This document shows, in pieces, positions 14,392-30,013 of a stretch of DNA of 31,228 bases (positions are counted from its first letter, which is position 1; every line of letters begins with the position of its first letter). This DNA comes from a virus: the IMG/VR virus record IMGVR_UViG_3300049734_000056, positions 1-31,228 of that record. One strand, 5' to 3'. The position numbers and the translations under genes are program-made. The notes under the pieces are model-generated. The model was not told where the DNA came from, searched no databases, and saw only the letters and a program-made list of their open reading frames with translations.

Positions 14392-14511
14392 CTATACCTC
14401 CAGGACGTCGATGATGATGATCACAGCACAGTCGTCGATGAAGGGCTCCGCACCGTTCGTCACCTCGACGGGTGAGAACTCTTCGGGCGTCACGTCACAG
14501 ACCTCGGTCAA
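14392..14511 (-). CDS. Small acidic protein, unknown
   Basis: A 39-residue frame fills the gap between the adaptor and the 149-residue gene. It starts with TTG at 14511 overlapping the adaptor's TGA (TTGA) and stops with TAG one base before the next ATG. An in-frame GTG at 14493 would give 33 residues. The protein is acidic with a run of Ile (CAVIIIIDVLEV). The last codons double as the ribosome site of the next gene. It fills a gap in a tightly packed operon, which supports it as real, but the start is unsure and no family was recognised. Confidence 0.45.
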   Translation of the reverse strand: MTEVCDVTPEEFSPVEVTNGAEPFIDDCAVIIIIDVLEV

Positions 14512-16567: not shown

Positions 16568-16699
16568 TTACGGCACGAGCGTTGAGCCGCACCAGAGGGC
16601 CAACCCGAACGGGATCATCTGGAACCCACCCGGGTTGACATTGAAGACGGCCAGGACGAAACAGATCGTCGCGACCAGCCTCATCCCCTGGGACAACAC
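16568..16699 (-). CDS. Small membrane protein, 43 residues
   Basis: GTG at 16699 overlaps the capsid stop as TAGTG, and ATG at 16684 is an alternative start giving 38 residues. From residue about 7 the protein is hydrophobic through to the end (RLVATICFVLAVF; then MIPFGLALWCG after NPGGF), predicting one or two short membrane helices with a Pro-Gly turn. It lies between the major capsid and the decoration-type gene. It could be a minor membrane peptide or holin-like, but no lysis genes are nearby to support that. No family was recognised with confidence. Confidence 0.5.
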   Translation of the reverse strand: MLSQGMRLVATICFVLAVFNVNPGGFQMIPFGLALWCGSTLVP

Positions 16700-17658
16700 T
16701 ACGCCATCCCAGTCAGGACGCCCTGACGCCGGCGCTGCGTGGTGCAGAGGTTCCCCGCGAACACGATCTGCGCGACACGATCGAGCTGGTTGGGAATCTG
16801 CTTCCACTCCGTCATCGCGAAGTTGACCCGCGGATCGTACTTCAGCTTCAGGTACTTCGTGTTGAGCATGTAGATGCGGCCGGACGAGACCTGGTCGTCC
16901 CAGAACATCGTGCAGCCCTTGAACTTGAAGTTCTCGAAGCCCAGGTCCTGACCCTTCGTGTCCTGCAGGCGATACAGGTCGAGGAGCTCGGCCTCGTACG
17001 CCTCGAAGATGTCGGCCGTGGTGAGGATCAGGTCAGGGAAGTCGACACCCGCACTCACCTGCCGGTAGAGCCGCCGCATGTCGGGGATGAGGTAGATGTC
17101 CATCGCCCCCGTCGCGGTCAGCTGGATGTTCCGCCACCACGTATACGTGGCCGGATCGATGCCTCCCAGCGACGTGGTGGACGGAGTGACAGAGACGTGC
17201 TTGGCGAGACCCTCGAGGTCCTTGCCGGCACCGCCAGAGCCGTCACCGAACACCATCTCACCCATCTTCTGCTGCATGGACAGGATGAGGTTGTCCAGCG
17301 CGTTCTGCACGCGGTCGATGATCTCGAACTCGCCGCTGTTCTGCTGGTCGTCGATGAAGCCGCGCTGCACCGACCCCGCCACGTACTTCCAGTTGTACTG
17401 GGCCATGGTCAGGTGGTCGGGCTGCTCCATGGTCACCGTGCCGAACCGTCCGATGGAGGCCACGGTGTTGTTGATGACGTAGTTCAGGGTGACACCGATC
17501 CACTTGCCGCCCGTCTGCTCCTCGCGGCGCCCGTTCTTGTTCATCCACCACCAGAACGGACGAGCGTTGTAGATCTGGTCGACGGCCTGGTTCTGCATCT
17601 TCTGCCAGGTCGTCGTATACAGGGTATCAAGGGCTTCCGTCAGATTCGGAGGAGCCAT
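16699..17658 (-). CDS. Major capsid protein
   Basis: This 319-residue protein starts at ATG 17658 behind GGGAG 7 bases upstream and directly follows the scaffold gene. It has the features of a podovirus/HK97-fold major capsid protein: a Trp-rich N-terminal segment (RPFWWWMNKNGR), a Gly loop, a long helix with QNALDNLILSMQQKMGEMVFGDGSGGAGKDLEGL, a stretch of strand residues around DIYLIPDMRRLYR and a C-terminal WKQIPNQLDRVAQIVFAGNL. The order scaffold then capsid, and length near 300, match. The stop overlaps the next GTG as TAGTG. The precise subfamily is not identified, but the role is quite secure. Confidence 0.85.
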   Translation of the reverse strand: MAPPNLTEALDTLYTTTWQKMQNQAVDQIYNARPFWWWMNKNGRREEQTGGKWIGVTLNYVINNTVASIGRFGTVTMEQPDHLTMAQYNWKYVAGSVQRGFIDDQQNSGEFEIIDRVQNALDNLILSMQQKMGEMVFGDGSGGAGKDLEGLAKHVSVTPSTTSLGGIDPATYTWWRNIQLTATGAMDIYLIPDMRRLYRQVSAGVDFPDLILTTADIFEAYEAELLDLYRLQDTKGQDLGFENFKFKGCTMFWDDQVSSGRIYMLNTKYLKLKYDPRVNFAMTEWKQIPNQLDRVAQIVFAGNLCTTQRRRQGVLTGMA

Positions 17659-21018: not shown

Positions 21019-21402
21019 CTACCTGTGATCGGCATGATAGCCGTAGATGGAGCAGTTGAGGGTAGACGTGGCTGCACCACTGTTGCCACCGATGGCGATC
21101 GGAGTTGCCGTCGCGGAGGCACGGATGGGATACGGGAAGTGCACGGAGAGGCGATCGCAGGTGACGGTAGCCGTTGCCGCTCGGCTGAGAGTGTAGGTCT
21201 GAGAGCCTCCCACCACTCCACTGAGCGTGAGGGCTACCGTCCCAACAGCTGGAGCCGTCCCGTTGACCAGCTCCGCATAGAAGCCGGTCACGTAGGCCGT
21301 CTCACCCGTCCCAGGCGTTCCCAGGGATGCAGAGACCGCCGAGTTGGCCCCAGTGGCGAACGCAGCGACGTCACACTGGATGGGACGTGTCTTGATGGAC
21401 AT
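21019..21402 (-). CDS. Small beta-rich virion protein
   Basis: This 127-residue protein starts at ATG 21402, overlapping the terminase 3' end by 32 bases, with GGGAG upstream. It is an Ala/Thr/Gly-rich beta protein: AYVTGFYAELVNGTAPAVGTVALTLSG, then RLSVHFPYPIRASATATPI and a final Gly-rich strand, a pattern seen in many small phage structural proteins. Probably a virion surface component. Cys10 and Cys81 may matter. Its location in front of the portal gene is unusual for a decoration protein. Confidence 0.6.
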   Translation of the reverse strand: MSIKTRPIQCDVAAFATGANSAVSASLGTPGTGETAYVTGFYAELVNGTAPAVGTVALTLSGVVGGSQTYTLSRAATATVTCDRLSVHFPYPIRASATATPIAIGGNSGAATSTLNCSIYGYHADHR

Positions 21403-23026
21403 TGCTGTGGTAGCTCCCGTATGCCCGCAACACCTCGCGGGATGTTTGGACGAAGGGATAGTTCACTGCCATGTTCCCACGAGTGAGCTTGTTGAGGATG
21501 TACTCAATGTTCATCGGGTCCATCGACGCCTTCTCCTCATCCGTGTACTCCGGGCCTGGCTGATCGCCGGGTACCCAAATGTGCGGGAGGTAGGCGAGGG
21601 CATCGATGATGTCGTCTTCGTTGATGAACGGGTACTTGATCAGCTGCTCCTCTAGAGCCTTCTGACTCTTCCTGATGAAGACCTTCCGCCTTGCAAAGAT
21701 CGGTTGGAGAGAGGCTCTGATACGCATCTCCTTGCTGATCTTGTTGGACGGCTGAAGAGCCTTCACGTAGAAGAACTTCCCTCTCTTGGTCATCTCAGTC
21801 TCGAGAGGGTGCTCCAGGGCTCTGAGAAGCGAGGCCATTTCAATACCCACCATTGTGGGGTTGTACGTGTTTACAAGGTTAAAGAGTAGGTCCATCAGCT
21901 CGTGGACTCCAATGCGGAGCTTCTTGGCCTCTTCAATGTAGACGTCATAGTTGTGATCCACGAAGCAGACTACGTAGCCGGTGTAATCCCCATGACGTTC
22001 CTTGCTGAGGGCGGGGTCGACAATGACATAGCACATGGATCGCTCGAGGATCGCCTTGTAGTCGAAGTCATGTAACTTCTCCAGATCCTCGATGTAGTTG
22101 ATCCAGTCCTTCTGAATGATGGCTCTGGCAGGGTCTACAGGGTCGTTCATGTACTGACACGAGAAGATGTAGGGGCCCTGTCTGTCACGGATCATGCGGA
22201 GAGTGTTGAGGGAGAACTCCTCTGGGAAGATCGGCTCCGCCTCCGGATCATCAATGGATTTTCCACCCTGCGTGGCCGCCTGCCAGAAGACTCGGAACTG
22301 AGGCTCATTGTCCTGGACATAGGACACGAAGTCCGAGTAGGCCCACCTGGTACCGTTGATGAGCTCCGTGTCTCGCTCTGGGTTGATCAGAAGGCTGAGG
22401 CTGTACTTGTGCCAATCGATCGGCTTCTGCATCTGGTCCTGACTGATGAGATGATCTTCGTTGACCAGGTCGTCCTTGATCATCCGTCTGAAGTGAAGCC
22501 CGACCGCGGTACCACCCACACCGATCAGGAAGAGGCTGGGTTCCTTGACATCGACGTCCCTGTTGATCTCCAGCTCGTGGTCGGTCCATTTACGGCCAGT
22601 GGGAGGAAGGAGATCGGACCAAACCCAACGGAAGAGGTTGTTGCCGTCGAAGTGCTGTCGGACTGCACGACCCATCTTGACTGCCATTCCGTCAGTTGCC
22701 GACCCGAGGATGATGGTGTCATTCTTGTCCTTGATCCAACACCAGATCGGAAAGCCCTCGCCACCAATCGTGGTCTTGTAGTGACCACGTGGGACGATCA
22801 CCATTCCCTTAGGCGTCAGGGGCTCCCTCGTCGTCTGGACGAAGTCCGCCAGTGGCTTGTGCAAGAATGGCGTCAGCTTGTTCTTGCCAAGAATCGCCCG
22901 GGTCAGGAAGTACAGGCTGTCTCTGCACGATTGCCTCAAGAACTCGCGGAGCGTGTCCTGTTCCGAGCTGCTGAGCGGTTTCAAGGATGAGGTTGAGATC
23001 TCCCCCGTTGATGTGAATGGTAACAT
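21371..23026 (-). CDS. terL: Terminase large subunit (DNA-packaging ATPase/nuclease)
   Basis: The start chosen is ATG 23026 (551 residues), eight bases after AAAGGGGGTG; GTG 23038 is too close to this site. N-terminal ATPase: a Walker A-like PRGHYKTT at about 79-86, where Tyr replaces the usual small residue before Lys-Thr; LFLIGVGGTAVGLHFRRMIKDD gives a Walker B-like IKDD at about 183-186. A QYMNDP motif near 291 marks the linker. C-terminal RNase H-like nuclease: Asp near 337 (VIVDPAL), Glu near 396 (GIEMA) and Asp near 475 (DIIDAL). Together with TerS it recognises, pumps and cuts the concatemer. It overlaps TerS by 218 bases in another frame. Confidence 0.92.
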   Translation of the reverse strand: MLPFTSTGEISTSSLKPLSSSEQDTLREFLRQSCRDSLYFLTRAILGKNKLTPFLHKPLADFVQTTREPLTPKGMVIVPRGHYKTTIGGEGFPIWCWIKDKNDTIILGSATDGMAVKMGRAVRQHFDGNNLFRWVWSDLLPPTGRKWTDHELEINRDVDVKEPSLFLIGVGGTAVGLHFRRMIKDDLVNEDHLISQDQMQKPIDWHKYSLSLLINPERDTELINGTRWAYSDFVSYVQDNEPQFRVFWQAATQGGKSIDDPEAEPIFPEEFSLNTLRMIRDRQGPYIFSCQYMNDPVDPARAIIQKDWINYIEDLEKLHDFDYKAILERSMCYVIVDPALSKERHGDYTGYVVCFVDHNYDVYIEEAKKLRIGVHELMDLLFNLVNTYNPTMVGIEMASLLRALEHPLETEMTKRGKFFYVKALQPSNKISKEMRIRASLQPIFARRKVFIRKSQKALEEQLIKYPFINEDDIIDALAYLPHIWVPGDQPGPEYTDEEKASMDPMNIEYILNKLTRGNMAVNYPFVQTSREVLRAYGSYHSNVHQDTSHPV

Positions 23027-23438
23027 TCGCGTTGTCACCCCCTTTCTTCACAGCGTTGGTCGCATCTGCGCGATCGAGGATGTCTTGTGCTGCAGCGAGC
23101 TTGACACGGTCGTTCTCACCCCGGAGCATGAGATTGTCGACCTGAGTGGACGCAGCTTCTGCTCGCAGGACGAAGCGTTCCCGAACCAGGGCTAGCGCTG
23201 ACTCTACCGTGTCACGAGCCATCGCCATATATGTTGCGGAGCGCATGATTGCCATCGTCTGCGCCACGCTGATTTGGAACTCCCGAGCTATGTCCCCTAT
23301 CGAACTACCGTTCAATCGTCTGTCTAGTATGAGCGCTTCTCGAACAACTGCCTCGGCGGAGGAGGAGTGAAGCTTGGTCTTGGACCCCTCTGGGGTTACG
23401 TTGCCGGCTAGGACTTCCTGTGCCAGCTCTTCGTTCAT
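22809..23438 (-). CDS. terS: Terminase small subunit (DNA recognition)
   Basis: This 209-residue protein is the first gene of the late operon. Start ATG 23438 has no ribosome site but lies eight bases past a strong promoter -10 box, so its mRNA is probably leaderless. Residues about 45-68 (SIGDIAREFQISVAQTMAIM) look like a helix-turn-helix, the usual DNA-reading element of TerS. A helical region follows (about 75-130), then IHINGGDLNLILETAQQ and an acidic tail, all of it within the 218-base overlap with TerL. Position directly before TerL and length of about 200 residues fit. Which sequence it reads is unknown. Confidence 0.8.
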   Translation of the reverse strand: MNEELAQEVLAGNVTPEGSKTKLHSSSAEAVVREALILDRRLNGSSIGDIAREFQISVAQTMAIMRSATYMAMARDTVESALALVRERFVLRAEAASTQVDNLMLRGENDRVKLAAAQDILDRADATNAVKKGGDNANVTIHINGGDLNLILETAQQLGTGHAPRVLEAIVQRQPVLPDPGDSWQEQADAILAQATGGLRPDDEGAPDA

Positions 23439-23446
23439 CTAGGTCC

Positions 23447-23475
23447 ATTGTACTCCCGTACTAAAAAGTAGTCAA
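23447..23475 (-). promoter_or_regulatory. Late-operon promoter (sigma70-like)
   Basis: On the minus strand: TTGACT (23475-23470), a 17-bp spacer, TACAAT (23452-23447). This is nearly consensus for a vegetative sigma factor. The predicted start lies about 7 bases on, at 23440-23438, where the TerS ATG begins, so the message would have little or no leader. Confidence 0.75.
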
Positions 23476-23964: not shown

Positions 23965-23993
23965 TTGGATGAGGTTCCCACCAACACTATAAT
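23965..23993 (+). promoter_or_regulatory. Sigma70-like promoter for the 63-residue gene
   Basis: TTGGAT (23965-23970), 17 bp, TATAAT (23988-23993). It is followed by a leader of about 25 bases with GGGGAGGTG before ATG 24024. GTTGG (23964-23968) and CCAAC (23980-23984) form an inverted repeat within the promoter, which could be an operator. Confidence 0.6.
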
Positions 23994-24023: not shown

Positions 24024-24215
24024 ATGGTCCGTAAGCTCACCGAGCAGGAGTTGAAGGACCTTCAGGCCTGGGAGAAGCACCAGGCTTACATGAAGGCCTA
24101 CAACAAGCGGTCTTACGTGCGCGCCAAGCGTACTGCCTATAACAAGGCACGCTGGGCTCGCATTAAGGCAGCTAAGGAGCTTATCTGCGACGACTCTGAC
24201 GAAGAGTCGAAGTAG
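24024..24215 (+). CDS. Basic helical protein, paralogue A
   Basis: This 63-residue protein starts at ATG 24024 behind GGGGAGGTGAGAG. It is basic and helical with several Tyr and Trp residues: RKLTEQELKDLQAWEKH, then YMKAYNKRSYVRAKRTAYNKARWARIKAAKEL, and a short acidic tail. A close paralogue lies at 24896 (46 of 51 aligned residues identical). The Lys/Arg-rich helices suggest DNA or RNA binding, but there is no named domain match from memory. A strong hairpin terminator follows. Confidence 0.7.
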   Translation: MVRKLTEQELKDLQAWEKHQAYMKAYNKRSYVRAKRTAYNKARWARIKAAKELICDDSDEESK

Positions 24216-24340: not shown

Positions 24341-24595
24341 ATGCCAGACATCCATGGTCACCTCTGTTACTGCGGTAACCACTGGGTGCACGATGCTGAT
24401 GAGATCGTCGACCAAGACGACAACCTCGTCAAGCACACGTGCAACTCGTGTGGTCGGCTGCAGTGGTGGAAAGACCAGGTGTCCTTCGCTGACCAGTTCA
24501 TCTGGGATCTCGAAGATGGTCGCAAGACCGTCCAAGAGATCGCAGAGCTGGCCAGAGTGGTCCTGAAGTCCGGGGCCCACAAGAAGGCCATCTAG
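24341..24595 (+). CDS. Small zinc-binding protein (CxC ... CxxC)
   Basis: ATG 24341 lies behind AGAGGAGG; frames from 24281 have no ribosome site. The 84 residues hold Cys9-x-Cys11 (LCYCGNHW) and Cys34-x2-Cys37 (TCNSCGRLQWW), the probable two halves of a zinc ribbon, then a helical C-terminus (TVQEIAELARVVL). A hairpin that may cover the ribosome site lies just upstream, and a hairpin terminator lies 22 bases downstream. A DNA- or protein-binding role is possible. No family was recognised. Confidence 0.65.
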   Translation: MPDIHGHLCYCGNHWVHDADEIVDQDDNLVKHTCNSCGRLQWWKDQVSFADQFIWDLEDGRKTVQEIAELARVVLKSGAHKKAI

Positions 24596-24617
24596 GTCTT
24601 CCAGCCAGCCTGACGGG

Positions 24618-24646
24618 TACTACGGGAATGCCCTCCCGTAGTATTA
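24618..24646 (+). terminator. Hairpin terminator-like structure
   Basis: Perfect 10-bp stem TACTACGGGA / TCCCGTAGTA with loop ATGCCC, followed by TTAAAGG. Follows the 84-residue gene. No long U-run, so efficiency is uncertain. Confidence 0.6.
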
Positions 24647-24820
24647 AAGGACACACTCGGTCCGAAGTCCGAGTGAAGTTGCTAGTACCTTGGCTGCGAC
24701 GAACTCGTCCCCCTTCGGGGGCCGGGGGGGCGGGCGGCCGGCCGGAGGTCTGCCTAGAAATCGGAGGGGGCGAAGGGGGAGGGTCCATACTTTATCGCTT
24801 ACGCGATCGAGGGGGCACAC
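24647..24820 (+). other. GC-rich, hairpin-dense non-coding block
   Basis: No supported gene. It holds CACTCGG / CCGAGTG (24654-24675), GACGA-AC-TCGTC (24698-24709), a CUUCGG-type tetraloop stem CCCCC-TTC-GGGGG (24709-24721) and a very GC-rich run with CGGCCGGCCGG. CCCCCTTCG (24709-24717) is complementary to CGAAGGGGG (24771-24779), so a longer fold is possible. ATCGC-TTAC-GCGAT follows near 24794. It could be a structured RNA, a packaging or recombination site, or a regulatory region of the promoter that follows. Confidence 0.4.
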
Positions 24821-24850
24821 TTGATTTACCCCTCGCGCTGATGATATAAT
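24821..24850 (+). promoter_or_regulatory. Conserved phage promoter, copy 1
   Basis: TTGATT (24821-24826), 18 bp, TATAAT (24845-24850), then six bases and ATG at 24857. Same arrangement as copies at 26364 and 28322. Drives paralogue B at 24896. Confidence 0.8.
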
Positions 24851-24856
24851 ATAAGT

Positions 24857-24877
24857 ATGATGAGATGAGCTCATCAT
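24857..24877 (+). promoter_or_regulatory. 5' leader hairpin with tiny leaderless ORF
   Basis: ATGATGAG / CTCATCAT is a perfect 8-bp stem around loop ATGAG; GATGAGCTCATC is itself a 12-base palindrome. The ATG at 24857 opens only ATG-ATG-AGA-TGA, overlapping ATG-AGC-TCA-TCA-TAG. Possibly regulates the gene at 24896. Confidence 0.4.
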
Positions 24878-24895
24878 AGAAAGAAGGAGATAGAG

Positions 24896-25147
24896 ATGAG
24901 AAAGCTAACGGAACAGGAGCTGAAGGATCTGAAGGCGTGGGAGAAGCATCAGAGCTACATGAAGGCGTACAACAAGAGGGGGTACGTCCGAGCGAAGAGA
25001 ACGCGATACAACAAGGCGCGGTGGGCGAGGATCAAGGCGGCGAAGGATCTGCTCGATGACGAAGAGCTCCCCGAGGATCAGGAGCTCAGCGAGGAGGAGC
25101 TGACGATCGAGGAGCAGGAGGAGAGGGAGCAGGGAGAGAGCAGCTAA
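24896..25147 (+). CDS. Basic helical protein, paralogue B, with acidic tail
   Basis: This 83-residue protein starts at ATG 24896 behind AGAAGGAG. Residues 2-52 are nearly the same as those of paralogue A at 24024 (5 differences in 51), but the codons used differ at many positions, for example CTA ACG GAA here against CTC ACC GAG there. A 30-residue strongly acidic tail is unique to this copy (EEEL and EEQEE clusters). The basic helical part may bind nucleic acid and the acidic part may mimic DNA or modulate it. Both copies have their own promoter and terminator. Confidence 0.7.
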   Translation: MRKLTEQELKDLKAWEKHQSYMKAYNKRGYVRAKRTRYNKARWARIKAAKDLLDDEELPEDQELSEEELTIEEQEEREQGESS

Positions 25148-25156
25148 CAACCAAGC

Positions 25157-25190
25157 AGCTGGGGGGATAGCGATTATCCCCCCAGCTTTC
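25157..25190 (+). terminator. Strong hairpin terminator
   Basis: AGCTGGGGGGATA / TATCCCCCCAGCT: a 13-bp stem with 5-base loop GCGAT, followed by TTC. Near-perfect; sits 9 bases after the gene stop and 13 before the next gene's ATG, so it may attenuate rather than fully end transcription. Confidence 0.7.
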
Positions 25191-25202
25191 AAGGAGAGAG
25201 CG

Positions 25203-25388
25203 ATGAGAGACATGGGAAGCGCTGTCGAGTGGGATAACGAGCGAGACCTCAAGATCCGAGCGGCTCAGGAGATCAACGCCAGGCACCGAGCGTACCTCGG
25301 GGCGATGGAGAAGTGGGCGAAGCTCATCATCCTGGCGCGTCATCAGGGAGAGTACCTGCAGCTGATGGAAGAGCTCCAGAGCCACTAG
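25203..25388 (+). CDS. Small helical protein, 61 residues
   Basis: ATG 25203 behind AAGGAGAGAG. The frame reads MRDMGSAVEWDNERDLKIRA, then a helical stretch with Trp and a Leu-rich end (WAKLIILARHQGEYLQLMEELQSH). Sits after the terminator-like stem, probably read through or from an unseen promoter. No family recognised. A strong terminator follows. Confidence 0.6.
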   Translation: MRDMGSAVEWDNERDLKIRAAQEINARHRAYLGAMEKWAKLIILARHQGEYLQLMEELQSH

Positions 25389-25397
25389 CGCGAAGGG

Positions 25398-25430
25398 ATA
25401 GGGGAGCGAAGTTTGCTCCCCTATTCTTTT
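25398..25430 (+). terminator. Rho-independent terminator
   Basis: ATAGGGGAGC / GCTCCCCTAT (10 bp), loop GAAGTTT, followed by TCTTTT. The best terminator in the rightward region. Confidence 0.85.
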
Positions 25431-25510
25431 CCCTCCTGCCCCCAGCCCCCCATCGAACGGATCCAAACCACCCCTATCCCCAGTTGCCATCTCGGTTATA
25501 TTATAATACC

Positions 25511-25648
25511 ATGAGTCTCGCGATCCCCGGCCGCCTCGGCCGTCGCCCCTTAGACGAACGGATCCAGACTGCTCGATCGGATTGGGGCCGGCTAAAGATG
25601 AAAGTGAAAACAACAATACAGCTGGTGATCTACCAGCTAGAGATATAG
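25511..25648 (+). CDS. Small protein, probably leaderless
   Basis: A 45-residue frame starts at ATG 25511 with no ribosome site, four bases after a TATAAT (25502-25507); overlapping -10-like TATTAT (25499-25504) would put ATG at the seventh base. No good -35. The protein starts MSLAIPGRLGRRPLDERIQT, is basic, and ends in a hydrophobic helix (IQLVIYQLEI). Its 3' end contains one arm of the inverted repeat at 25623. Moderate confidence because of weak promoter and size. Confidence 0.4.
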   Translation: MSLAIPGRLGRRPLDERIQTARSDWGRLKMKVKTTIQLVIYQLEI

Positions 25649-25790
25649 TCTCTGTGAATGTGGGGCCTGGCGATTACTATCCATAGTCTCTCTCTAGTTA
25701 TTTGGTATATTATCATTTATTATTTTTTATTTTTTATTAATCCATTACATCATTTCAACTCTATATATCTCTCTGCACGGTAGATCACCA
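25623..25790. repeat. 12-bp inverted repeat flanking an AT-rich block
   Basis: TGGTGATCTACC (25623-25634) and its reverse complement GGTAGATCACCA (25779-25790) flank about 144 bp. The left copy also forms a small hairpin by itself (GCTGGT / ACCAGC). The interior contains the AT-rich block at 25697-25770. Confidence 0.55.
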
Positions 25791-25809
25791 CTCGTAAGGA
25801 AAAGAAAAG
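25649..25809. other. AT-rich non-coding region, candidate origin or control site
   Basis: No gene is seen. Positions 25697-25770 are by my count about 85% A+T in a genome with high GC. It includes runs of T and TATTTTTTATTTTTTATT-type short repeats. An easily melted block, bounded by inverted repeats and a promoter, is what a replication origin or a strong promoter region would look like. No iterons or named replication protein gene are visible. Confidence 0.4.
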
Positions 25810-25838
25810 TGGATTTCCACTACTGATGGTGGTATAAT
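25810..25838 (+). promoter_or_regulatory. Promoter of the 113-residue gene with overlapping palindrome
   Basis: TGGATT (25810-25815), 17 bp, TATAAT (25833-25838), then a leader with AGGAGGG before ATG 25858. The palindrome AGTGGA-TT-TCCACT (25808-25821) covers the -35, a likely operator. Confidence 0.6.
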
Positions 25839-25857
25839 AGGCTCAGGAGGGTCACAC

Positions 25858-26199
25858 ATGCCTATCGATCACGGGTTCAACCCCACATGGAATCCCAAAG
25901 ACAGAGCCATCCTCAAGCGACACAACCAGCCAGAGACTCAACACTCCAAGGACTATCGCAACTGGCGTAACAAGCGCCAGCAGATCATCAAGCGGCTTCT
26001 CTACTGGCAGCTAGTCATGGAGGGAGAACTCACACCAACAGGACCCAAGGAAACCCCACTCCCACAAGCCACAGTGGATGAGATCAGAGCGATGGCTCCC
26101 GCAATGTGGAAGCAACTCCAAGAGGAGCTAGAGCTACACGATGAGTTCAGACGTGGAGTGTTCCAACGTCGATATCCAAAGCCACAACGGGAGGTCTAA
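25858..26199 (+). CDS. Basic helical protein, 113 residues
   Basis: ATG 25858 behind AGGAGGG. Reads MPIDHGFNPTWNPKDRAILK, followed by a basic RNWRNKRQQIIKRLLYWQLVM helix, a Pro-rich turn and an acidic C-terminal helix ending in RRRYPKPQREV-like basic residues. Probably a DNA- or RNA-binding accessory protein from composition, but not matched to a family. Its stop is adjacent to the next ATG (TAAATG). Confidence 0.65.
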   Translation: MPIDHGFNPTWNPKDRAILKRHNQPETQHSKDYRNWRNKRQQIIKRLLYWQLVMEGELTPTGPKETPLPQATVDEIRAMAPAMWKQLQEELELHDEFRRGVFQRRYPKPQREV

Positions 26200-26367
26200 A
26201 TGGGTTCATCGGAGTATGAGAAGGATAAGGAGGAGTGGCTACACGCAGTGATCAGCTCTATGTCTCCCTGGCCGATACAGCGTGACAGGAAGAAGTTAAA
26301 GGGGCTAGTCAAGATCCTCGACAGCTATCTCTCTGCCCTCAAGGCCGGGGATAAGAATGATACTTGA
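26200..26367 (+). CDS. Small protein, 55 residues
   Basis: ATG 26200 begins immediately after the preceding TAA, ribosome site CGGGAGG. MGSSEYEKDKEEWLHAVISS, then a helical basic region and C-terminal Lys/Asp-rich end. The final codons contain the -35 element of the second conserved promoter (TTGATT at 26364). No recognised family. Confidence 0.55.
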   Translation: MGSSEYEKDKEEWLHAVISSMSPWPIQRDRKKLKGLVKILDSYLSALKAGDKNDT

Positions 26368-26393
26368 TTTACCCCTCTCTCTCATGATATAAT
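26364..26393 (+). promoter_or_regulatory. Conserved phage promoter, copy 2
   Basis: TTGATT (26364-26369), 18 bp, TATAAT (26388-26393), then six bases and ATG at 26400. Nearly the same sequence as copies 1 and 3, including the TTACCC stretch after the -35 and TCATGA before the -10. Confidence 0.85.
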
Positions 26394-26399
26394 AGTAGT

Positions 26400-26747
26400 A
26401 TGATGAAGCTATGTCATGAACAAATAAAGGAGAGCGAACCCATGACGAAGAAGAGTGATGTGGTGAAGCTGTGGCTCGACGGTATGGTGTCGGCGGACGA
26501 GGCGATGGCGAAGATCGCTGAAGACCAGCTCACCGAGACCGAGAACAGCAAGAAGGAGGGTGGATCCAAGAGGCAGCTGCTCGACGTGGTGATCACGGTC
26601 AGTAGAGTCGAGCAGCGGCCAGATGGGGAACCCTACAGCAGCACTCAGGTGTTCAGGTTCGATTACGAAGAGGGCACGTGGGATGACATGCTCGGCTCGA
26701 TCAGCGAGTACGCTGTTGAGGGTGGTATCATGCAGAACAAGGTGTAA
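26400..26747 (+). CDS. Small protein with possible dual start
   Basis: ATG 26400 is at the predicted +1 of promoter copy 2 and in frame with ATG 26442, which has GGAG about 10 bases upstream. Leaderless translation gives 115 residues, internal initiation 101 (MTKKSDVVKLWLDG). The protein has an N-terminal helical part and a C-terminal beta part (VVITVSRVEQRPDG, TQVFRFDYEEGTWDDML). No family recognised. The first gene of an operon running to 28220. Which start is used needs experiment. Confidence 0.65.
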   Translation: MMKLCHEQIKESEPMTKKSDVVKLWLDGMVSADEAMAKIAEDQLTETENSKKEGGSKRQLLDVVITVSRVEQRPDGEPYSSTQVFRFDYEEGTWDDMLGSISEYAVEGGIMQNKV

Positions 26748-26759
26748 GGAGGAGAACAG

Positions 26760-26921
26760 ATGATCGTCAAGGTGACGCACGTGATGGAGATCGAGGTCCT
26801 CGAGCCTCTCACCGATGAGTCGGTGGAGAACGCGTACTTTGGACACATGATCGGAAACACTAGCTACAACGACCGGGAGATCGAGTTCAAGTGGGAGATC
26901 ATCAAGGAGGAGAGCAAGTGA
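26760..26921 (+). CDS. Small beta protein, 53 residues
   Basis: ATG 26760 behind AAGGAGGAG. MIVKVTHVMEIEVLEPLTDE, acidic, beta-like, ends with FKWEIIKEESK. Overlaps the next GTG by four bases (GTGA). No recognised motif; similar in style to other small phage operon proteins. Confidence 0.6.
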   Translation: MIVKVTHVMEIEVLEPLTDESVENAYFGHMIGNTSYNDREIEFKWEIIKEESK

Positions 26922-27133
26922 GAGACCTACCGTTCTACGGCACCGAGTTCGAGGACCGATTCATCAAGCGTCTCAAGGCTCAGGGGCATCACTGCGTCTT
27001 CGCGGCGTGTGAGAACCTCATCGAGGGGATGGCGGATTTCAGGGATGATCTCAGCAGGAGGGAGTTCGCCATCAGCGGGATCTGTCAGGGGTGTCAGGAC
27101 AAGCTCTTCAAGAACCCAGAGGAGGAGCTCTAG
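26918..27133 (+). CDS. Small zinc-binding protein, 71 residues
   Basis: GTG 26918 overlaps the preceding TGA, with GGAGGAG upstream. A longer ATG frame (26891) is inside the previous gene. Cys26-x4-Cys31 (HHCVFAACEN) and Cys56-x2-Cys59 (ICQGCQDKLF) are probable zinc ligands in a treble-clef or ribbon. Acidic C-terminus. Part of the operon from 26400. Confidence 0.65.
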   Translation: MRDLPFYGTEFEDRFIKRLKAQGHHCVFAACENLIEGMADFRDDLSRREFAISGICQGCQDKLFKNPEEEL

Positions 27134-27134
27134 A

Positions 27135-27329
27135 ATGCCAGTCAAGGTGCACTTCAACAAGGATGGGTACTACAAGGTGCTGGATCAGTTCAACGGGGCG
27201 TTGGACATCGCGGCGTACGATCACAACACCAAGACCTTGATGTTCTGCGGTAGTGAGGACAGCTACGACGTGGAGGGCGGCCGATTCATCCCGATCGAGT
27301 TCATCCTGGGCAACGAGGAGGAGATCTAG
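27135..27329 (+). CDS. Small beta protein, 64 residues
   Basis: ATG 27135, with GAGGAG upstream. MPVKVHFNKDGYYKVLDQFN..., mixed charged and aromatic, predicted beta strands (TLMFCGSEDSYDVEGGRFIPIEFIL). The stop TAG overlaps the next GTG (TAGTG). No family recognised. Longer frames from 27009 belong to another reading. Confidence 0.6.
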   Translation: MPVKVHFNKDGYYKVLDQFNGALDIAAYDHNTKTLMFCGSEDSYDVEGGRFIPIEFILGNEEEI

Positions 27330-27499
27330 TGGCTCATGCGTATCTGATCGCGTGTGGGAAGTGTCACTTCGCGGAGCTGTGGTGGAGCCACAGCAACGTG
27401 AAGGAGAGGTTCAAGGACATCGAGAATCATCAGGACGATCTCAGCGTGAGTGAGTGTGGTGGGATCCTCGAGCTGATGGACATCGAGATCCAGTCATGA
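27329..27499 (+). CDS. Small Cys/His protein, 56 residues
   Basis: GTG 27329 overlaps the preceding TAG as TAGTG, with GGAGGAG upstream. MAHAYLIACGKCHFAELWWS holds Cys9-x2-Cys12, and a later Cys43; His13, His21 and others could complete a zinc site. Ends at TGA 27497-27499, overlapping the next ATG. No family. Confidence 0.55.
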   Translation: MAHAYLIACGKCHFAELWWSHSNVKERFKDIENHQDDLSVSECGGILELMDIEIQS

Positions 27500-27771
27500 A
27501 GCAGCGGAAGTTCAAGGCTCTGTGCCTCAACTGTGGGTGGGATAGCAGTTGGATGCACGGGCCTACAGAGGCTGAGGCGTATCACTTCGCGCTTCACTAT
27601 CGGCAGCACAAGCACCTCAGTACCAAGCCCGGAAAGATGGAGTGTCTGAGCGCGATCCTGGTGGTAGCGACCAAGGAGGCCTACGAGCTTCCGAACCCCA
27701 CAGGATGGGATGTGGTGACCGAACGGCAAATGGAAGGCGAGATCGCGGAGAACTGGAGGAGAGTGCTATGA
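27496..27771 (+). CDS. Zinc-finger-like protein, 91 residues
   Basis: ATG 27496 overlaps the preceding TGA (ATGA). Cys10-x2-Cys13 (LCLNCGW) and a His-rich helix (EAYHFALHYRQHKH) give a C2-H2-type zinc site, as in several phage small zinc fingers. The C-terminal half is beta/alpha with Trp. Frames starting earlier are readthrough. Part of the operon. Confidence 0.65.
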   Translation: MKQRKFKALCLNCGWDSSWMHGPTEAEAYHFALHYRQHKHLSTKPGKMECLSAILVVATKEAYELPNPTGWDVVTERQMEGEIAENWRRVL

Positions 27772-27932
27772 GGCAAGACTACAAGGACGTGATCAAGTAC
27801 GGGCTCAGTCCGTTCGACGCAGAGGCTCTGATGAGGATCATCGAGACTCCCAACGATCTGATCCTCATGAACGGCAACGTGTGGGTGCCAGGGTTCATCA
27901 ACGAGGAGTTCGAACTCAAGGGTCACGGCTGA
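27768..27932 (+). CDS. Small protein, 54 residues
   Basis: ATG 27768 overlaps the preceding stop (ATGA), with GGAGAG upstream. MRQDYKDVIKYGLSPFDAEA..., ends in FELKGHG. Acidic, mixed structure; no motif seen. Translationally coupled to both neighbours. Confidence 0.55.
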   Translation: MRQDYKDVIKYGLSPFDAEALMRIIETPNDLILMNGNVWVPGFINEEFELKGHG

Positions 27933-27935
27933 CCC

Positions 27936-28220
27936 ATGGTGATTGCGGTCGGTTCTGACCGCTTCAGGACGGCGTTCGAGAGTGATACGATAGACACCAC
28001 AGCGTTGAGGAAGGCGGCTGAGAAAGCTGGCTACTTCACCAACCGCTGGAATGACCATAAAGAGTTCGAGATCAACCCGGAGCTGACTGTCTGGATTCCG
28101 GAGGATGAGGATAAGCGTTACGACTACCTGGACCGCGTGGTCTATGGCACCGCGATCGCGAAGGTCACGGTCGAGGAGCTCAAGGACATCGTCCGAGAGA
28201 TGTTCATGGACAGGATGTAG
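27936..28220 (+). CDS. Unknown protein, 94 residues
   Basis: ATG 27936, three bases after the preceding stop, no strong ribosome site (coupling is likely). MVIAVGSDRFRTAFESDTID then a helical basic region, an acidic FEINPELTVWIPEDEDKRYDYLDRVVYGT and a helical C-terminus with Met-rich end. Last gene of the operon from promoter copy 2. Confidence 0.6.
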   Translation: MVIAVGSDRFRTAFESDTIDTTALRKAAEKAGYFTNRWNDHKEFEINPELTVWIPEDEDKRYDYLDRVVYGTAIAKVTVEELKDIVREMFMDRM

Positions 28221-28321
28221 AAGGCTAGAGGTTCGACAGAACATGAACAGTGGCTTTCCATTCAACAATCCATGAGAATAGGAGGTGAGATAGGTTGTAT
28301 GCCCCGAGCAAGGGGTGATAC

Positions 28322-28351
28322 TTGCTTTACCCTTATATCTCATGATATAAT
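28322..28351 (+). promoter_or_regulatory. Conserved phage promoter, copy 3
   Basis: TTGCTT (28322-28327), 18 bp, TATAAT (28346-28351), six bases and ATG 28358. The 100 bases before it hold no supported gene, only a small CCCC-GAGCAA-GGGG stem (28302-28315) and an AGGAGGTGAGAT stretch without a clear start codon behind it. Confidence 0.8.
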
Positions 28352-28357
28352 GGTAGT

Positions 28358-28534
28358 ATGATCAAGTTAACGATAGCAATCAACGTGAGGAGGGGGGTGA
28401 GAGCGATGGATATCGGGAAGGAACAGGAAGAGATCTACATCGAGCCGAAGGAGAATCCGGTACCGAAGAAGAAGGAGGAGACGGTTCCAGTCGAGCCGTC
28501 AAAGGAGGAAGTTCATGAGCCAGCTGGACGCTAA
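28358..28534 (+). CDS. Small charged protein, leaderless start or internal start
   Basis: ATG 28358 lies at the predicted transcription start. The same frame has ATG 28406 behind AGGAGGGGGGTGAGAG, giving 58 or 42 residues (MDIGKEQEEIYIEPKENPVP...). The common part is rich in Glu, Lys and Pro and looks disordered. Ends at TAA 28532-28534, overlapping the next gene by 20 bases. No family. The leaderless N-terminus (MIKLTIAINVRRG) is basic and different in character. Confidence 0.5.
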   Translation: MIKLTIAINVRRGVRAMDIGKEQEEIYIEPKENPVPKKKEETVPVEPSKEEVHEPAGR

Positions 28535-29285
28535 CGGTCAGGAGTTCAAGAGAGAGGAGCCTTTCCACGCGTGGAAAGCGCTCGTGGCGATCAACGGTAG
28601 GCTCCACAGCGCCTCGCAAGAGGGGATCGTGTGGGTGCCGAGAGAGCCGATGGTCGCGCAGTGTGCGATCAGAGCTCATGAGTCCAGACTTGAGGGGATC
28701 CCACCGCATGTCGGATGCAGCTGTGGGATCTACGCGCTCAAGGATCTCGGTCAGGAGCTCCAAGGTTACGTGAGACCAACCCCCACGTCGCCGAACCGCT
28801 ACGGAGCGATCGGAGAGCCAGGAGTGGTTCCGGCAGTAACGCAACTCGCCATGTGGGGCAAGGTTATTCAAGGAACCACTGGCTACAAGGCGCAGTATGC
28901 TTATCCGATCATGATCTACGTGCCGGACAAGGAGACGGCAGAGGTCATCGGAGATGCGTACGGCGTTCCCACGAACTACGAGCAGTGGGCAGACATCGGT
29001 AAGGCCCTCAAGATGGTGCAACAGTCGGATGCCATCAAGAGGGGAGCCATCATCGATCCCAAGATCAAGGCGGAGATCGACGCCATGAGCTTGGAGGAGA
29101 AGCTGAAGCTGGCGAGGATGGCGAAGTATCAGGGCGAGTACCACAGGTGGTACAACGAGAGGAAGCAGACCATCAAGAAGGTGGAGTACTGGGAGGCAAT
29201 GGTCAAGAGAGCTCCGGTCGAGCTCGCTAAGATGAAGGCGAAGCTCCGGAGCGTGGAAGCGAGCAAGCCGATCCGGAACTACTAG
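28515..29285 (+). CDS. CxCGIYA-domain protein with C-terminal coiled coil
   Basis: ATG 28515 behind AAAGGAGGAAG; 256 residues. The N-terminal part (AWKALVAINGRLHSASQEGIVWVPREPMVAQC) leads to PPHVGCSCGIYALKD at about 63-77. This pattern of a short beta domain ending in Cys-x-Cys-Gly-Ile-Tyr-Ala is known to me from many actinobacterial and actinophage hypothetical proteins. Residues about 180-250 are Lys/Arg/Glu-rich helices with a coiled-coil look. Function unknown; Cys50, Cys68 and Cys70 may bind metal. One of the few medium-sized proteins of the rightward region. Confidence 0.65.
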   Translation: MSQLDANGQEFKREEPFHAWKALVAINGRLHSASQEGIVWVPREPMVAQCAIRAHESRLEGIPPHVGCSCGIYALKDLGQELQGYVRPTPTSPNRYGAIGEPGVVPAVTQLAMWGKVIQGTTGYKAQYAYPIMIYVPDKETAEVIGDAYGVPTNYEQWADIGKALKMVQQSDAIKRGAIIDPKIKAEIDAMSLEEKLKLARMAKYQGEYHRWYNERKQTIKKVEYWEAMVKRAPVELAKMKAKLRSVEASKPIRNY

Positions 29286-29305: not shown

Positions 29306-30013
29306 ATGCCTAGTCTCAGAGATCTAGCGTGGGAGCTCAGAAGGTATGGGTTCACACAGCTGCGGCACACAACTCATGGTATCCTCTATGGCAAGGGAGA
29401 GCTTCGGTTCTCCCTTGTCAATGAGGTCAACCAGAAGGATGCCATCGGGGTCAGCAACCAGGCTGACAAGGCTTGGAATGACTGGGGCAAGCTAGTTAAG
29501 GAACATGGGCTCCAGGCCACCATGAGGTTCAAGCAGGCTCCCGTGGTCAATCCGGAAGACATCAAGCCAGTCGATAACCCAGAGGAGGGGATGCCGGAGC
29601 TGGAGCCGATCATGACTCCGGCTGAGGTCAAACAGGTCGTAGAGGAAGTGGTCCCACCCAACGAGGTGGAGGAGGATGAGATGAAGAAGTTGGGTACCCC
29701 GAGGAAGCGAAGGGAGTACAAGGGCGTGACGTGCCCGAAGTGTGGCAAGCACTTCAAGCACATGGGGAAGCACGCTCAGACGTGTGACGGCAGTGGCAAG
29801 ACCAAGAAGCAGCGTGCGGCGTTGAAGCCACTGCCGATCGACAGGGCTCCAATCAGCAACGGAACGGTGATGGCGGCGCTCCAGCTGATCACCAAGGAGT
29901 TGCCGAAGATGATCGGTGACATGGAGTACGAGCTCAAGCTGGTTCGGAAGGAGCGAGATGAGCTCGCGACGTGGAAGAACAACTTCCAGAAGTTCTTCGA
30001 GGTCAAGAAGTGA
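29306..30013 (+). CDS. HicA-like N-terminal region fused to a C2HC zinc finger, with helical C-terminus
   Basis: ATG 29306, GGAG upstream; 235 residues. Residues 1-45 (LRDLAWELRRYGFTQLRHTTHGILYGKGELRFSLVNE) resemble the small dsRNA-binding fold of HicA-type toxins: helix, strand, a central His in a GILY-like strand. This is only a resemblance; no toxin activity is claimed. A long Pro/Glu-rich linker (80-130) leads to Cys143-x2-Cys146 and His152/His156-Cys160 (CPKCGKHFKHMGKHAQTC), a C2HC zinc finger. Residues about 185-235 form a helical coiled coil (ELKLVRKERDELATWKNNFQ). Probably a nucleic-acid-binding regulator. Confidence 0.6.
   Translation: MPSLRDLAWELRRYGFTQLRHTTHGILYGKGELRFSLVNEVNQKDAIGVSNQADKAWNDWGKLVKEHGLQATMRFKQAPVVNPEDIKPVDNPEEGMPELEPIMTPAEVKQVVEEVVPPNEVEEDEMKKLGTPRKRREYKGVTCPKCGKHFKHMGKHAQTCDGSGKTKKQRAALKPLPIDRAPISNGTVMAALQLITKELPKMIGDMEYELKLVRKERDELATWKNNFQKFFEVKK

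Follow-up and report, generated by a model that had tools for sequence, protein, structure and literature searches.

Some messenger RNAs (mRNAs) of Escherichia coli carry an AUG at their very 5' end and, further down, a gene led by a Shine-Dalgarno (SD) sequence; in these upstream-AUG (5'-uAUG) SD-leadered mRNAs the 5'-AUG binds 70S ribosomes and the SD-led start binds 30S subunits (Beck, Fleming and Janssen 2016, PMC4965119). When the 5'-AUG is altered, expression downstream changes for some genes and stays the same for others (PMC4965119). By analogy, this class appears to be the nearest tested model for three promoters, here called P1, P2 and P3, in the 31,228-bp virus fragment IMGVR_UViG_3300049734_000056. 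The whole fragment is referred to as the window, and the number of promoter copies found in it is a lower bound. Each of the promoters has an ATG fixed at its predicted transcription start. We consider it probable, at roughly 0.6, that these are strong host-polymerase promoters yielding mRNAs with a 5'-AUG, that the main start of each gene is SD-led, and that the 5'-AUG probably acts as a second ribosome entry.

The motif TTGxTTTACCC-N9-ATGATATAAT occurs at positions 24821, 26364 and 28322, always on the plus strand, with zero copies expected from shuffled sequences. In every copy an 18-bp spacer leads to TATAAT, which is followed by six bases and then by ATG. This is the arrangement that a sequence-only reading of the window had described, and its three positions and fixed spacings are borne out. 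The same reading listed TTTACCC among the shared bases. The heptamer is indeed invariant, but it does not lie wholly after the -35 element, with which it shares two bases. The consensus offered for a genome scan, TTGATTTACCC-N7-TGATATAAT, has the wrong gap, the actual one being N10, and such a scan gives no further copies in the 31-kb window. A position weight matrix scores P1 to P3 at 70-77 and the runner-up site at 8.5, and neither the matrix nor the motif scan found a fourth copy there. Within the window, AGTATGAT and TGATATAAT are each confined to the P1-P3 sites. The promoter features are as follows.

24821 to 24861, plus strand: promoter P1, with -35 TTGATT at 24821-24826, TACCC at 24827-24831 and TGATATAAT at 24842-24850
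24854 to 24861, plus strand: P1 start block AGTATGAT, with ATG 24857-24859 at the predicted +1
26364 to 26404, plus strand: promoter P2, with -35 TTGATT at 26364-26369, TACCC at 26370-26374 and -10 TATAAT at 26388-26393
26397 to 26404, plus strand: P2 start block AGTATGAT, with ATG 26400 at the predicted +1
28322 to 28362, plus strand: promoter P3, with -35 TTGCTT at 28322-28327, TACCC at 28328-28332 and -10 TATAAT at 28346-28351
28355 to 28362, plus strand: P3 start block AGTATGAT, with ATG 28358 at the predicted +1

P1, P2 and P3 form a single 54-nt repeat family. When the A of the ATG is numbered +1, the columns identical in all three are -38 to -26 (except -33), -16 to -7 and -3 to +5. Only three of the nine spacer positions (-25 to -17) and none of the three at -6 to -4 are invariant, and both flanks have diverged too. 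The contrast of 30/31 invariant positions in the three blocks with 3/12 in the spacer and -6 to -4 (Fisher p=3.6e-6) is post hoc, the block borders having been set once the data were seen. A recent duplication of the promoter was rejected as the source of the likeness, the three blocks being intact while the spacer and flanks have diverged. Because a fresh duplication would preserve the spacer also, selection on the three blocks appears to be the simpler reading. The parts of a sigma70/sigmaA extended -10 promoter are all present: a -35 element near TTGACA, a spacer of 16-18 bp, TGn and a -10 element near TATAAT. P1 and P2 match the two hexamers at 10 of 12 positions and carry the TG. The -35 element of P3, TTGCTT, agrees with TTGACA at three of six positions, which is below the scan cut-off; its -10 element is perfect and TGn is present. 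P1 to P3 are thus a real, constrained family of predicted promoters with an ATG at the start site, and we infer their activity and the exact +1 from this pattern.

The family resembles the early promoters of phage T4 in combining a strong -35/TGn/-10 arrangement for the host polymerase with extra conserved bases and in being repeated before early genes. However, the T4 early consensus, in the portion of PMC2988021 consulted, does not include a fixed ATG at +1, and no relation of the window phage to T4 was found. The TTGCTTTA of P3 also resembles the MotA box of T4 middle promoters, TGCTTtA, which the same portion of that account places 12 +/- 1 bp from the -10 element (PMC2988021) and which stands in place of a -35 element. 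A MotA promoter was rejected, since the letters that match stop 16 bp short of the -10 element and the -35 TTG is retained. No MotA-like gene was identified in the window. A class of leaderless genes has a TANNNT element some 12 bp ahead of the start (PMC3160421), and here TATAAT likewise begins exactly 12 bp before the ATG. Unlike in those genes, the likely start codon lies further downstream, behind an SD sequence.

The sequence-only reading held that the spacing is fixed to an ATG and not to a ribosome site. In fact, an SD sequence exists 3' of each promoter copy, with start codons 39 nt (P1), 42 nt (P2) and 48 nt (P3) beyond the +1 ATG; an SD-led start downstream is a feature of the 5'-uAUG SD-leadered class too. 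The +1 ATG and the SD-led start share a frame in all three, for which the chance is 1/27. The features of the downstream units, and of a promoter that serves for contrast, are listed here.

24857 to 24877, plus strand: predicted hairpin in the P1 leader, enclosing the +1 AUG (stem of 8 bp, -9.1 kcal/mol, z -3.25)
24886 to 24889, plus strand: SD GGAG of the P1 gene
24896 to 25147, plus strand: P1 gene, 83 aa, no family (Pfam) match, its start backed by the paralogue 24024-24215
26429 to 26432, plus strand: SD GGAG of the P2 gene
26442 to 26747, plus strand: P2 gene, 101 aa from the SD-led ATG
28387 to 28393, plus strand: SD GAGGAGG of the P3 gene
28406 to 28534, plus strand: P3 gene, 42 aa from the SD-led ATG, followed by genes 28515-29285 and 29306-30013
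23965 to 23993, plus strand: contrast promoter TTGGAT-17-TATAAT, no ATG at +1, preceding the SD-led gene 24024-24215

In the mechanism that we propose, host RNA polymerase with its primary sigma factor would read P1-P3 through the -35 TTGxTT, the 18-bp spacer and the extended -10 TGATATAAT, and each promoter would drive a set of small phage genes, probably early ones, that runs rightward. The first transcribed base would most likely be the A of the invariant ATG, giving an mRNA starting 5'-AUGAU. Translation of the gene would begin mainly 39-48 nt further on, at the conventional SD-led start. The 5'-terminal AUG would be kept as a transcription-start sequence and probably also as a second ribosome entry point. 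The frames from the +1 ATGs of P2 (26400) and P3 (28358) are open and would add 14 and 16 residues, respectively, so that 70S loading there would produce isoforms longer by those amounts. The +1 frame of P1 reads MMR-stop, with TGA at codon 4, and would yield a three-codon start-stop peptide.

The likeness to the E. coli class thus comprises an AUG at the (here predicted) 5' end, an SD sequence and start codon after it, and, at P1, a three-codon open reading frame (ORF) that resembles the short upstream ORFs of the E. coli messages. The E. coli cases are scattered host genes, whereas here the arrangement occurs three times in one phage within one promoter family. The uAUGs tested in E. coli were chosen out of frame (PMC4965119), whereas the predicted ones of P1-P3 are all in frame.

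The start block extends beyond this phage. The pattern TGATATAAT-N3-AGTATGAT matches 85 stretches of viral contigs, compared with 18 for the same-letter scramble AGTTAGAT. Because a count in AT-rich DNA is partly due to chance and some of the phages are related, the association with -35 elements and ORFs outweighs the raw number. After the real sites had been collapsed to distinct N-termini, and the 18 scramble matches to about 11 as judged by eye, a -35 element matching at least five of six positions was found at 21/56 real sites and 0/11 scramble sites (p=0.013). When the collapse was made a little stricter, there were 19 distinct good-promoter sites, and at 14 of them an ORF of at least 40 aa opens at the ATG. 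At four of the 19 the 5'-AUG opens a short ORF and an SD start comes after it, always in a different frame. Judged from these matches, the start block is not private to this phage.

A viral contig of 60,457 bp, IMGVR_UViG_3300037119_004150 (G202), carries eight copies of the start block at up to two mismatches, and the reversed control gives none. The copies have TTGACA or TTTACA, a TGATATAAT-like -10 element and, six bases on, an ATG opening an ORF of 57-115 aa. In one of the eight the ORF contains an obvious SD sequence and, 39 nt in, an ATG in the same frame, as in the window. G202 and the window are alike in that a promoter with TGATATAAT-N3-AGTATGAT recurs ahead of small phage genes, but G202 lacks TTTACCC, has a different -35 element, and its ATG opens the ORF directly. 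Starts in the array region (L209, 33-50 kb) are of the leaderless type, and the genome is uncultured and actinophage-like. The host of G202 is likely actinobacterial, because its primase/helicase resembles those of Curtobacterium phage Shrew (45% identity) and of Microbacterium phages (43-44%). The compared parts of G202 and the window show no convincing protein homology (best E 0.003, over a short stretch). No such array was found in the parts read of Curtobacterium phage Shrew, Microbacterium phage Triscuit and Gordonia phage Azira. Three near-copies of the start block, at 14448, 17272 and 23942, are present in a further viral contig of 45.6 kb (G206, of L146).

The layout in G202 and at the 14 of 19 sites, together with the open, in-frame frames of P2 and P3, is what speaks for the +1 ATG as the sole or main start codon of truly leaderless genes in the window as well. 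Such genes open at +1 with neither leader nor SD start. However, the P1 frame stops at codon 4, with the gene starting 39 nt later at a position supported by its paralogue, and an SD start is present in all three units. Leaderless translation as the sole or main mode of the three genes is therefore highly improbable. The idea of leaderless mRNAs, as the sequence-only reading had it, fails as the main mode for these genes and fits the same block in other phages.

That reading had alternatively proposed an operator running through the ATG and a phage-specific regulator acting on all three units. Since the block from the -10 element to +5 recurs without TTTACCC in unrelated phages, a role as part of a private operator is unlikely, and the start block most likely serves general machinery, either RNA polymerase or the ribosome. 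A phage-encoded regulator might still bind TACCC beside the -35 element, with the start block optional, and so control the three units jointly. TACCC (-30 to -26) is invariant in P1-P3, is not needed by sigma70 and is not shared by the start-block promoters of other phages; TTTACCC occurs at the three sites and elsewhere in the window only once (9172, opposite strand). The protein encoded at 29306-30013 (235 aa, 3' of P3) has a CxxC...HxxxC pattern and a weak, sub-cut-off match to Ros/MucR (E 0.005), and this zinc-finger-like protein is possibly a DNA-binding protein. However, no separate copy of such a site, away from a promoter, was found in the window, and no regulator was identified in this fragment of the genome. 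Joint control in this manner is improbable, and TACCC may be the site of a regulator or else a promoter feature of local scope.

Other searches covered wider ground. The strict motif was not found in viral contigs beyond this record, and a motif with a relaxed -35 element gave eight stretches, none with AGTATGAT. Genome contigs gave three matches to the strict motif, two without a promoter-like context and one 5' of a lipoprotein gene in an Oscillospiraceae metagenome-assembled genome. The latter was rejected as evidence of the host and taken as chance: 200 genomes of that family gave only the same site. Among 80 loci whose capsid protein is related (28-38% identity), none has the motif or a repeated promoter of comparable kind. 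Among promoters of the fetched loci that had not been chosen for an ATG, one stands six bases past TATAAT in 8/83. This is not clearly above other offsets, and therefore no general claim is drawn.

Several observations weigh against the proposed mechanism at P1-P3. The common frame involves n=3 sites and may be due to chance. The 5'-AUG of P1 is paired in the predicted hairpin, and initiation there would yield almost nothing because the frame closes after three codons; structure prediction gave no comparable fold in the P2 and P3 leaders. The +1 was placed by spacing alone, promoters of this type starting transcripts about 7 nt past the -10 element, and is possibly off by 1-2 bases. In the set of 85 matches ATGAT at that position was a selection criterion, and many of these matches fall in a few groups of related phages.

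The same features bear on the idea that P1-P3 are plain strong promoters, in which RNA polymerase simply prefers ATGAT at the beginning of the transcript and the 5'-AUG plays no part in translation. The SD starts at all three genes and the fate of the P1 AUG agree with this idea. The paralogue 24024-24215 (75% DNA identity to the P1 gene over 161 nt) has an SD-led start in agreement with that of the P1 gene. Its promoter lacks the +1 ATG, which is therefore unnecessary for translating the P1 gene family. However, the G at +3 and the whole of ATGAT are kept in all three promoters, and in other phages the block usually opens an ORF, where the ATG appears to be linked to translation. Plain promoters are possible but, on balance, rather unlikely. 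As a separate observation, the two paralogous small genes, 24024-24215 (63 aa) and 24896-25147 (83 aa), are served by two different promoters.

The minus strand of the window carries the packaging and structural genes, including TerL (21371-23038), TerS (22809-23438) and the major head protein (16699-17658), while on the plus strand, from about 23.6 kb onwards, the genes are small and have no family match. The genes of P1-P3 are probably early, judging from their position and size. Relatives in the phage collection are distant, with about 30% identity or less in TerL and the head protein. A TerL search for close relatives returned only one identical 4.8-kb contig, and searches with two early proteins found none. 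Upstream of TerS, at 23438-23475 on the minus strand, TTGACT-17-TACAAT is followed eight bases past the -10 element by an ATG with no SD sequence at the usual distance, so that the packaging operon is predicted to have a near-leaderless start at TerS.

A type-P5 twister self-cleaving ribozyme lies at 24609-24672 on the plus strand (Rfam RF02684, 41.0 bits against a gathering threshold of 37.6), between the gene 24341-24595 and promoter P1. At the end of a phage transcript unit it could separate that unit from the next. Strong hairpins are found 3' of the P1 unit genes at 25157-25187 and 25393-25429; the second has a T-rich tail, as well as a chance sub-threshold microRNA match, and is probably a terminator. 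At 25623-25790 an AT-rich stretch of about 100 bp lies between 25-nt inverted arms (80% complementary) in a genome that is otherwise GC-rich, and is possibly an origin or attachment site.

Gene finders mostly place starts at SD sequences or, rarely, at a leaderless ATG. If the promoters hold a 5'-AUG in place and keep an SD start as well, then dual-entry messages are a systematic product of some phages. The three promoters in one phage and the eight in another would then provide a natural, replicated test for a selected function of 5'-terminal AUGs, which the E. coli work did not settle. The start-block motif is also usable for finding leaderless phage genes in metagenomes. More tentatively, and in our view unlikely as it stands, a single cassette may both start transcription and supply the first AUG, such that every message has two entry points, the 5'-AUG for 70S ribosomes and the SD sequence for 30S subunits. 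If this were true, the genes could be translated while the host ribosome pool is in one state or another, and such cassettes, sharing one start block, would have emerged in unrelated phages or spread among them.

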